Shown in pieces: positions 3,855 through 7,486 of a stretch of 64,000 nt of DNA. Made by a program: the position numbers and the translations under genes. Source of the stretch: Roseithermus sacchariphilus (lineage in GTDB: Bacteria; Bacteroidota; Rhodothermia; Rhodothermales; MEBIC09517); the NCBI GenBank assembly GCA_003285105.1, contig CP030158.1, positions 186,001-250,000 on the forward strand, written 5' to 3'. Within the stretch, counting starts at the first letter, position 1. Each line of letters opens with the position of its first letter. The notes under the pieces were generated by a model that worked only from the letters and a program-made list of their open reading frames with translations, had not been told where the DNA came from and ran no database searches.

Positions 3855-3955
3855 CCCGGCCCGAGGCCGGGAGCCGCCCGCGGGGATCGCTTCTTCCACC
3901 CGGCCCGCTGTATATTGCCTGCCCCCTTCGCCCCACAGGTGCTTCCCTTTCCGGT

Positions 3956-5092
3956 ATGACGGCTCCCATCACCGTTCGCCCCGTGCGGTCGCGCGCCGAT
4001 CTCAAGCGCTTCATCGACCTCCCGTACCGGCTCTACCACGACACCCCGGCCTGGGTCGCCCCGCTGCGGCGGGACGTCGGCCGGACGCTCAACCCGAAGA
4101 CCAACCCGTTCTTCGAGCACGGCACCATCCAGCCCTTCCTGGCCGAGGACGCCCGCGGCACCGTCGTCGGCCGCATCGCCGCGATCGTCAACGGGATGCA
4201 CCTCAAGAAGTACGACGACGGCAACGGCTTTTTCGGGTTCTTCGAGACGATCGAAGACGAGACGGTCGCCCGGGCCCTGCTCGACGCCGCCTGCGCGTGG
4301 CTGCGGCAGCAGGGCCTGACGGGCGTGCGCGGGCCGGCCAACCCCTCGCTCAACGACACCGCCGGCCTGCTGGTCGACGGCTTCGACCGGGAGCCGTCGA
4401 TCCTGATGCCGTACAACTTCCCCTACTACGAGGACTACCTGACGCGCTACGGCTTCGAGCGGGCCATGACCATGTGGGCCTACTACGTCCACAAGAAGTA
4501 CGTCCGGGTCGATAAGCTGCGGCGCGGGGTGGAGATCGTCCGGCGGCGTAATCCGACCGTCACGGTGCGCAAGCTGGACATGAGCCGCATCGACGAGGAC
4601 GCCCGGCACGTGCTGGACATCTACAACGAGGCGTGGTCCGAGAACTGGGGCCACGTGCCGATGACCCCGGCCGAGTTTCAGCACCTCGTCCGGGACCTGA
4701 AGCAGATCGTCGACCCCGAGATCGTCTACATCCTGGAAGATGCCGGAACGCCCATCGCCTTTTCCGTGGCGATCCCCAACCTCAACCTGGCGCTGAAGCA
4801 CGTTCGCGACGGCCGCCTGCTGCCGCTCGGGCTGCCCCGGCTGCTGGGGGCCTCGACCTTCGGCGGGATCTATGAGTGCCGCATGCCGCTGATGGGCGTC
4901 CGCAAGAAATACCACGGGCGCGGCCTGGACAGCATCCTGATCTATGAAACCATCGTCCGGGGGCCGCAGGCCGGTTACGATGCCTGCGAGATGAGCTGGG
5001 TGCTGGATTCCAACAAGGTGCTGCTGAACGCGCTCCACTCCCTGGGCGGGGTGGTGGACAAGGAATACGCCATGTTCGAGAGGTCGCTGTGA
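3956..5092 (+). CDS. GNAT-like N-acetyltransferase family protein (uncharacterised)
   Basis: 378-residue protein starting MTAPITVRPVRSRADLKRF. This matches a widespread, poorly studied family whose members begin 'VRSRRDLKRFI.LP..LY....WVPPL' and carry 'NPFFEHG', 'GRIAAIVN' and 'GFFGFFE' blocks; the C-terminal half looks GNAT-like. Substrate is unknown. The open frame extends to 3824, but ATG 3956 is chosen because it gives the family N-terminus. A TATATT -10-like box lies at 3911-3916, about 40 bases upstream. It follows aguA on the same strand, but a link to polyamine metabolism (for example polyamine acetylation) is speculation. Confidence 0.75.
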   Translation: MTAPITVRPVRSRADLKRFIDLPYRLYHDTPAWVAPLRRDVGRTLNPKTNPFFEHGTIQPFLAEDARGTVVGRIAAIVNGMHLKKYDDGNGFFGFFETIEDETVARALLDAACAWLRQQGLTGVRGPANPSLNDTAGLLVDGFDREPSILMPYNFPYYEDYLTRYGFERAMTMWAYYVHKKYVRVDKLRRGVEIVRRRNPTVTVRKLDMSRIDEDARHVLDIYNEAWSENWGHVPMTPAEFQHLVRDLKQIVDPEIVYILEDAGTPIAFSVAIPNLNLALKHVRDGRLLPLGLPRLLGASTFGGIYECRMPLMGVRKKYHGRGLDSILIYETIVRGPQAGYDACEMSWVLDSNKVLLNALHSLGGVVDKEYAMFERSL

Positions 5093-6626: not shown

Positions 6627-6652
6627 AAAAAAGCTGCCGGGTGGGGCAGCTT
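6627..6652 (-). terminator. Intrinsic terminator
   Basis: Read on the minus strand: an 8-bp stem AAGCTGCC/GGCAGCTT with a 6-base loop (CCACCC), running directly into a T tract. It closes the putative RNA unit that starts near 7451 and lies 22 bases before the glycosyltransferase start codon. Confidence 0.8.
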
Positions 6653-7451
6653 TCACGTTTCGTCCGGTTGAAGTTCCCTCGACGCGAGGGCCTCCCCTGA
6701 TTCAGACGGGAACGGGGGCACGGCGGGCAGGCCAGGATGCCACCGCCCTTCTGGATCAGTGTGGGAGGCCGTCTCTGTGCTCACCGCACCGGCCGGAGCC
6801 GGCACAGCGTCGGAGGTCCTGCACAGCGGTGCGGCGTGATCCGGTACCCCGTGCCCGCTCCACATGGGCATATGGAGCGGCAGCCCTCCGGCAGCGTGTG
6901 AGACCTGCGGTTGCGGCTCCACCGCCTCGCCCTCCGAACGCAGCGCGTTGCGGCAAGCGGGGTCGGCGGTTGCAGGGGCAGCCGATACGACGCCGTGTGG
7001 CGTGGTACCAGGCTCCCTGCGTACGGCGCTCCGGGACCGGCGGCGACACCGTCCGGCGAGCCGGTCGGTGCGTCTCCTCATCCCTGCGCCGTGCCACCCG
7101 GCGGTTCGACGCGCCGTGTGGCGGCGTCTACGCCCTCCGGGCGTTCCGATGCTCGTCGGGTTCGTGCGGCCAGCGCATCGGCCTCGCGGGCCGGAGCCAT
7201 GGACTCACACGCACCACCCGTTGCCGTCGGTTCGCGGTTCCGACCAGGCAGCGGGCGCTACCGGGCCGGCCGGCTCGAACCGGGCGCGGGGCTCCTGCCG
7301 CGCATCCGGGCAGCGTCGGCCTATGCCGAGCATGACACCGAACGTCCGGCAGGAGGCGTCATCGGATGCCGCACGATCTCTCGACCCTCGCAGGTCGACC
7401 TCATGCAGCCTAGAGACTCAGTCGCGTCAAGGAACCGTGCCGTCAGGCACT
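6627..7451 (-). ncRNA. Putative structured non-coding RNA of about 825 nt, unknown family
   Basis: Inferred transcript bounded by a near-perfect sigma70 promoter (7458-7486) and an intrinsic terminator (6627-6652). No reading frame inside has credible coding signal. The longest minus-strand frame (6653-7081) has many A/T third positions and rare codons (aga, gta, gga, cca), unlike neighbouring genes, and matches no protein family I know. The sequence is rich in self-complementary segments. These include an 8-bp stem CCGCTCCA/TGGAGCGG at 6855-6862 and 6873-6880, an 8-bp long-range pair CTCCTGCC/GGCAGGAG at 7292-7299 and 7348-7355, a hairpin at 7438-7451, and two identical 12-bp hairpin elements CGCCGTGTGGCG at 6991 and 7112. 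It lacks the RNase P, tmRNA, SRP and rRNA signature sequences I could check. A long regulatory leader for the glycosyltransferase is an alternative. Confidence 0.6.
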
Positions 7452-7457
7452 GGACTC

Positions 7458-7486
7458 AGTATAGACGCGCCGGCAGGACCTGTCAA
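7458..7486 (-). promoter_or_regulatory. Sigma70-type promoter of the putative RNA gene
   Basis: On the minus strand: TTGACA (7486-7481), exactly 17 bp, TATACT (7463-7458), the closest match to consensus in the window. The region just upstream is T-rich and could act as an UP element. The predicted start is near 7451. Confidence 0.85.

Follow-up and report, generated by a model that had tools for sequence, protein, structure and literature searches.

The window analysed here, 64 kb of Roseithermus sacchariphilus DNA, carries on its minus strand a transcription unit of about 825 nt (positions 7452 to 6627). It is predicted to specify a large structured non-coding RNA with its 5' end near 7452 and its 3' end near 6627, a prediction that rests on promoter and terminator, conserved 5' and 3' blocks, and covariation in relatives. 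The sigma-70 promoter TTGACA-17-TATACT (7486 to 7458, minus strand) matches the consensus at 11 of 12 positions and is the sole site in the entire 64 kb scoring above 9 of 12. The unit is closed by an intrinsic terminator (6654 to 6627, minus strand) consisting of a 10-pair stem at 6654 to 6629 and a T run, and a 12-bp hairpin with T run further upstream (7607 to 7573, minus strand) forms a terminator separating it from the rhomboid gene. An earlier reading of the window from its letters (the sequence-only reading) had pointed out these three elements without giving a strand, including the rank of the promoter as the best of the window, and all of them were borne out. It had also noted a repeated 12-bp hairpin element at 6991 and 7112; the repeat is exact, but the hairpin comprises merely 4 bp and was given no weight.

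Mechanically called open reading frames within the unit reach 259 aa. In an alignment of 13 sequences from relatives, 205 of the 246 gaps were not multiples of three and each of the three RNA-strand frames contained stops; no conserved reading frame ran across the RNA. A hidden protein gene was rejected, since no frame is kept among relatives, which agrees with the earlier judgement that the unit holds no credible ORF. The 826-nt strand folds at -472 kcal/mol as compared to -408 ± 5 kcal/mol for dinucleotide shuffles (z = -12.7). Fold stability of a GC-rich RNA is weak evidence by itself, and the case therefore rests on comparison.

A covariance model of the 5' block of the RNA (R1) was used to search genomes. 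It matched 56 of 114 Rhodothermales genomes in 11 families, normally once per genome; the carrier genomes are related by descent, so these counts are not independent events. Conservation in the syntenic region of relatives, which the sequence-only reading had suggested examining, was thus found across 11 families. Outside the order, R1 gave no match in 245 genomes of the class or 394 drawn from the phylum, and the RNA was absent from the viral, plasmid and phage collections searched. A BLASTN comparison of the unit with 60 relatives gave matches in 34, nearly always to the same first 50-100 nt of the RNA, and each matched locus had its own promoter, followed by the hairpin CAGUGCC..GGCAC and then by GUUCCUUGACGCGACUGAGUCUCUAGGCUGCAUGAGG. 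Additionally, scanning the genomes of 84,980 species for a pattern returned 39 loci, the named records of which were Rhodothermales, Rhodothermia or Bacteroidetes plus one Ruminiclostridium; the latter (L071) lacks promoter and P1 hairpin and was dismissed as a chance match.

The neighbouring genes were traced with the window proteins, which were assigned by Pfam as rhomboid, HAD hydrolase, family-2 glycosyltransferase (PF00535) and PurQ-like amidotransferase. Of the 56 loci, 45 have the rhomboid gene upstream of the RNA at a distance of up to about 1.5 kb; downstream, the usual next gene is a convergent HAD hydrolase gene (39 loci). Several absences among these counts are contig ends. The HAD gene is adjoined in most loci by a conserved 380-aa protein (window positions 3950 to 5092, plus strand) without a Pfam match at E<0.001. 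In families f9 and f12, none of the traced genes was found near the RNA. Half of the order, same-family relatives included, is without the RNA (58 of 114 genomes), and empty sites were observed in RNA-less G012, G047 and G032, where the rhomboid and HAD genes end some 13-45 bases apart. The idea that genomes lacking a match might hold a diverged RNA at the syntenic site was rejected on account of these abutting genes, and likewise for the rhomboid-HAD gaps of G039, G046 and G053, which were read by eye as small lipoprotein-like genes. Such genes occupy the position between rhomboid and HAD at L158, L160 and L162, where other families hold the RNA. Judged by this distribution, the RNA forms a unit of its own; it can disappear or change place independently of the neighbours, which argues for action in trans.

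The RNA is organised around its two ends. A near-invariant 5' block begins at the expected transcription start, and a 3' block, CAGGGGAGGC-GUCGCGUCGAGGAA, follows about 430-1050 nt downstream of it and is itself followed by the terminator. All helices described below are on the minus strand. P1 is the 5'-terminal hairpin CAGUGCC-UGAC-GGCAC (7452 to 7436). P2, which closes the entire RNA, pairs GUUCCUUGACGCGA of the 5' block (7435 to 7422), nearly invariant across the order, with the last strand of the 3' block (UCGCGUCGAGGGAAC, 6687 to 6673) and is present in nearly all copies. P3 joins GUCUCU (7417 to 7412) and AGAGAC (6776 to 6771) over about 635 nt; among relatives it pairs GAGUCUCU with AGAGACUC, likewise hundreds of bases apart. 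P4, located between P3 and P2, is a hairpin of the form ACCUCCC...GGGGAGGU, its strands being GGCCUCCC (6770 to 6763) and GGGGAGGCC (6697 to 6689) in the window. P5 (7410 to 7393) is a hairpin with the near-invariant loop GCAUGAGG. The long-range complementarity noticed by the sequence-only reading proved to be the conserved part of the RNA.

An 11-bp hairpin capped by a GCCC tetraloop was found at 6880 to 6855, and many relatives have the same loop at 114-204 nt from the 3' end, where the stems differ; 27 copies have such a hairpin with at least six pairs in this range. A core is kept constant, comprising the P2 5' strand, CUGAGUCUCU, the GCAUGAGG loop and the GCCC-capped hairpin, while the interior helices, 300-900 nt in all, vary in size; natural length variants span about 460 to 1050 nt. 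The constancy of the P2 5' strand and of the GCAUGAGG loop exceeds what pairing needs and points to contact with a protein or an RNA, or to self-contact. Inspection of the alignments by eye for kissing of the GCAUGAGG loop with the GCCC loop revealed no consistent complement. In family f9 (L142, L145, L147), extra hairpins are present between P1 and P2, together with a family-specific conserved stretch, GGAGAAAATGTGTCTGG, within the RNA.

The helices were analysed by an alignment-free strand-swap test, in which the duplex energy of each RNA's own strands was compared with that of strands exchanged between genomes (2000 permutations). Cognate and swapped energies were -19.49 and -19.06 kcal/mol for P2, -11.15 and -9.14 kcal/mol for P3, and -16.53 and -12.71 kcal/mol for P4, with 0 of 2000 permutations reaching the cognate value in each case. 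The effect for P2 is small because its 5' strand hardly varies, and P1 and P5 show too little variation for the test to discriminate. P3 was treated in this way because the structural alignment of both ends offsets it by two bases in some rows. Compensation in P3 is illustrated by GUCUUU with AAAGAC in L123 and L127 and by GAAUCUC with GAGGUUC in L121.

Furthermore, RNAalifold recovered P1 to P4 unaided from the 13-sequence alignment, which covers one family, with 118 pairs, 54 of them changed on both sides. The energy was -117 as compared to -37 ± 5.5 for shuffled columns (z = -14.6). Paired cells amounted to 94.0% versus 84.9% in shuffled and 40-46% in slid alignments, and the covariation score was 0.385 versus 0.215 and at most 0.106. 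Compensatory changes exceed both the shuffled and the shifted controls, as is characteristic of a structured RNA; covariation among relatives, proposed at the outset as a check on the unit, was thus found in the swaps of P2, P3 and P4 and in the alignment. Families f6, f13 and f14 were left out when a 3'-domain model (R2) was built, and the best match of this model lay at the expected place in 8 of 10 held-out loci (E 7e-13 to 6e-4: 7e-13 for f6, 4e-9 to 6e-4 for f13, about 1e-5 for most of f14); of the other held-out loci, L139 gave no match and L140 just E = 0.017. Families f8, f9 and f12 fit the 5' or 3' domain models less well, and poorly with R2. By these comparisons, selection clearly maintains the shape of the RNA.

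The promoter is also conserved. In 50 of 56 loci it was found at the same position with a 17-bp spacer and at least 9 of 12 matches; relatives show TTGACN-17-TATAAT at a distance unchanged from that in the window, and in family f12 the promoter was not recognised. Just upstream of the -35 element, sequences of the type TTATNCACA/TGTGNATAA, resembling DnaA boxes, are present in nearly every copy. The window has the weakest kind of array (7524 to 7494, minus strand): a degenerate one with 11-bp phase, in which one box with one mismatch (TGTGAATAT, 7524 to 7516) is followed by two poorer repeats, TGTTGACGA and TGTTGATTT. A perfect DnaA box was present upstream in 22 of 56 loci versus 9 of 1120 background windows of the same loci, so that such sites near the RNA promoters exceed chance expectation; a box with at most one mismatch was counted in 53 of 56 loci, the background figure referring to perfect boxes. 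The TGTG repeats lie at about -101, -90, -78 and -67 from the start of P2, spaced by 11 bp (35 cases) or 12 bp (15 cases).

Boxes placed 2 bp apart, that is with an 11-bp period, favour DnaA oligomers (PMC10316083; PMC6070618): Thermotoga DnaA pairs best on same-orientation boxes 2 bp apart (PMC10316083), and weak sites of E. coli oriC have the same spacing (PMC6070618). DnaA also functions as a transcription factor (PMC8203912). The array upstream of the RNA resembles the oriC arrays in box sequence and in its period of about 11 bp, but differs from them in lying directly upstream of an RNA promoter and away from the GC-skew switch. That switch is at about 1.0-1.4 Mb in G000, the genome of the window, with the RNA at 0.19 Mb, and at about 0.54 Mb in G024, with the RNA at 1.12 Mb; the RNA locus was accordingly rejected as the main oriC in these two genomes. 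Binding of DnaA to the array is our inference from the boxes, which another factor could also bind.

Four other explanations of the locus were weighed. The sequence-only reading had considered a long 5' leader, a riboswitch or attenuator, controlling the glycosyltransferase in cis. This gene is the next same-strand gene in the window, just past the terminator, but it was found at only 9 of 56 loci, the opposite-strand HAD gene being next in 39, and the RNAs of f9 and f12 have none of the traced genes nearby. The constant gene linkage expected of a cis regulator is absent and the terminator closes the RNA unit, so that a leader is contradicted and appears highly improbable. The GC-rich window and its mechanical ORFs might suggest a GC-rich intergenic remnant without function, or a coding region overlooked because of its frame; we give this practically no credence in view of the covariation, the conserved promoter, the matches of the held-out model, the out-of-frame gaps and the stops in every frame of the RNA strand.

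The locus could also act as DNA, titrating DnaA or resembling an origin, with the RNA as a by-product or as an origin primer in the manner of ColE1 RNA II. The arrays upstream of nearly every copy would fit this proposal, but the covariation within the RNA requires a functional RNA and the distant GC-skew switches in G000 and G024 speak against a main origin; we consider it unlikely. Size and ornate structure, which recall OLE, GOLLD and ROOL (PMC12286853), might point to a known family (RNase P, tmRNA, 6S, OLE, GOLLD, ROOL or other) of which the RNA would be a strongly diverged member. A search of the window with the whole Rfam 15 library, however, yielded nothing at gathering score or with E<1, and no family reached the gathering score in 17 relatives; the OLE, GOLLD and ROOL models matched neither window nor relatives. 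This Rfam search, which had been proposed with the initial description of the unit, agrees with the statement made there that signatures of RNase P, tmRNA, SRP and 6S were not seen. The unit matches none of the covariance models of bacterial RNase P RNA (RF00010), tmRNA (RF00023) and 6S (RF00013), and genuine genes for RNase P RNA (G000:C1:4096762) and tmRNA (G000:C1:2532478) are present elsewhere in the same genome. In none of 113 genomes from the order did a 6S RNA exceed the Rfam cut-off, and a missing 6S could be hiding here; yet RF00013 misses the Bacteroides control too, so that this absence means little, also with regard to a possible complementary distribution of the RNA and 6S, and the multi-helix fold of 460-1050 nt is unlike the 6S rod. 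Descent from a known family is thus very unlikely. Weak RF00013 matches occurred in six genomes, five of them in family f15, which is without the RNA. A sub-threshold BjrC68 match in L008 (1328 to 1381) was set aside because it is not part of the RNA, from which about 180 nt separate it on the upstream side.

With synteny, covariation, the lack of an Rfam match and the lack of a conserved frame in its favour, the main proposal of the sequence-only reading, an independent unit for a new structured RNA, is supported. Quite probably, the unit encodes a large, structured non-coding RNA that acts in trans and represents a new class in the order Rhodothermales. The class is previously undescribed and absent from Rfam 15, and no description of such an RNA was found in the open-licence papers searched. 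RNA polymerase with the housekeeping sigma factor would use the near-consensus promoter and start at the P1 hairpin, and the RNA would end at the intrinsic terminator; P2 joins its two ends, and P3 and P4 build a compact core around P2. The sequences establish the conservation of promoter, ends and core structure, the absence of coding and the independence from neighbouring genes. Control of transcription by the replication initiator DnaA seems rather likely from the boxes: DnaA would bind the 11-bp phased boxes just upstream of -35, and the RNA level may then track the replication state or ATP-DnaA. There is perhaps an even chance that the RNA acts as a stable particle, its invariant core serving as a scaffold for a protein or for further copies of the RNA; the RNA would then work as proposed for OLE, GOLLD and ROOL and not on a neighbouring gene. 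Alternatively, the RNA may be a ribozyme or may act as antisense through its invariant single-stranded segments. A large structured RNA whose synthesis is set by DnaA and which helps in trans to control replication or the cell cycle, or a DnaA-timed RNA particle, is a tentative and somewhat doubtful extension; if true, it would be a replication-linked large RNA of a kind not known in any bacterium.

To our knowledge, few bacterial RNA classes of such size have been found, most of them without known function. OLE (577 nt in C. acetobutylicum) is, like the Rhodothermales RNA, large, structured and chromosomal, and its biochemical function is unknown (PMC12286853); it occurs in Gram-positive bacteria and not in Rhodothermales, the order of the RNA described here, for which neither a constant partner gene nor an Rfam match was found. 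GOLLD and ROOL, of 659 to over 800 nt and also of unknown function, share size and ornateness with it (PMC12286853), but are encoded by phages and prophages, in many cases close to tRNA islands, and not as a single chromosomal copy. The RNA can be placed loosely with these three, size and complexity being the only tested defining features shared; a further mark of OLE, GOLLD and ROOL is the ordered homo-oligomer observed by cryo-EM. CcnA of Caulobacter is a cell-cycle-tied non-coding RNA whose gene, like that of the Rhodothermales RNA, carries DnaA boxes, weak ones in its case (PMC8959179); it differs in its length of 182 nt, its location at the origin and its presumed activation by CtrA. The RNA adds another large class in bacteria; it is conserved across an order, its ends are defined, its core covaries and its length variants are numerous. 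The DnaA-box array upstream suggests, as a concrete starting hypothesis, that the RNA is linked to chromosome replication, and comparison is possible between members of one family that have the RNA and others that lack it.

The phased triple TGTGNAT gave 14 matches in 113 genomes and none with a reversed-pattern control. Seven of the matches, spread over six genomes, are located at RNA promoters. Another two belong to RNA-less genomes and lie some 200 bp before a DnaA-like frame recognised by eye from its N-terminal residues; at these loci (L239 and L240, in G084 and G054) TTGTGGATAACTTGTGTATAAAATGTGGATAA forms an 11-bp phased array about 200 bp before the apparent dnaA start. Two others, in G078 and G090, fall within origin-like clusters of perfect boxes, with dense TTATCCACA/TGTGGATAA clusters at L237 (G078) and L241 (G090) that are probable replication origins. 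At L236 (G043:C321:52244-52274), tandem TGTGGATCACAC extends into the beginning of what may be a tRNA dimethylallyltransferase gene and is likely a simple repeat. DnaA-family genes over the curated cut-off numbered two each in G024, G034, G029 and G058, and one in G000, G010 and G011.
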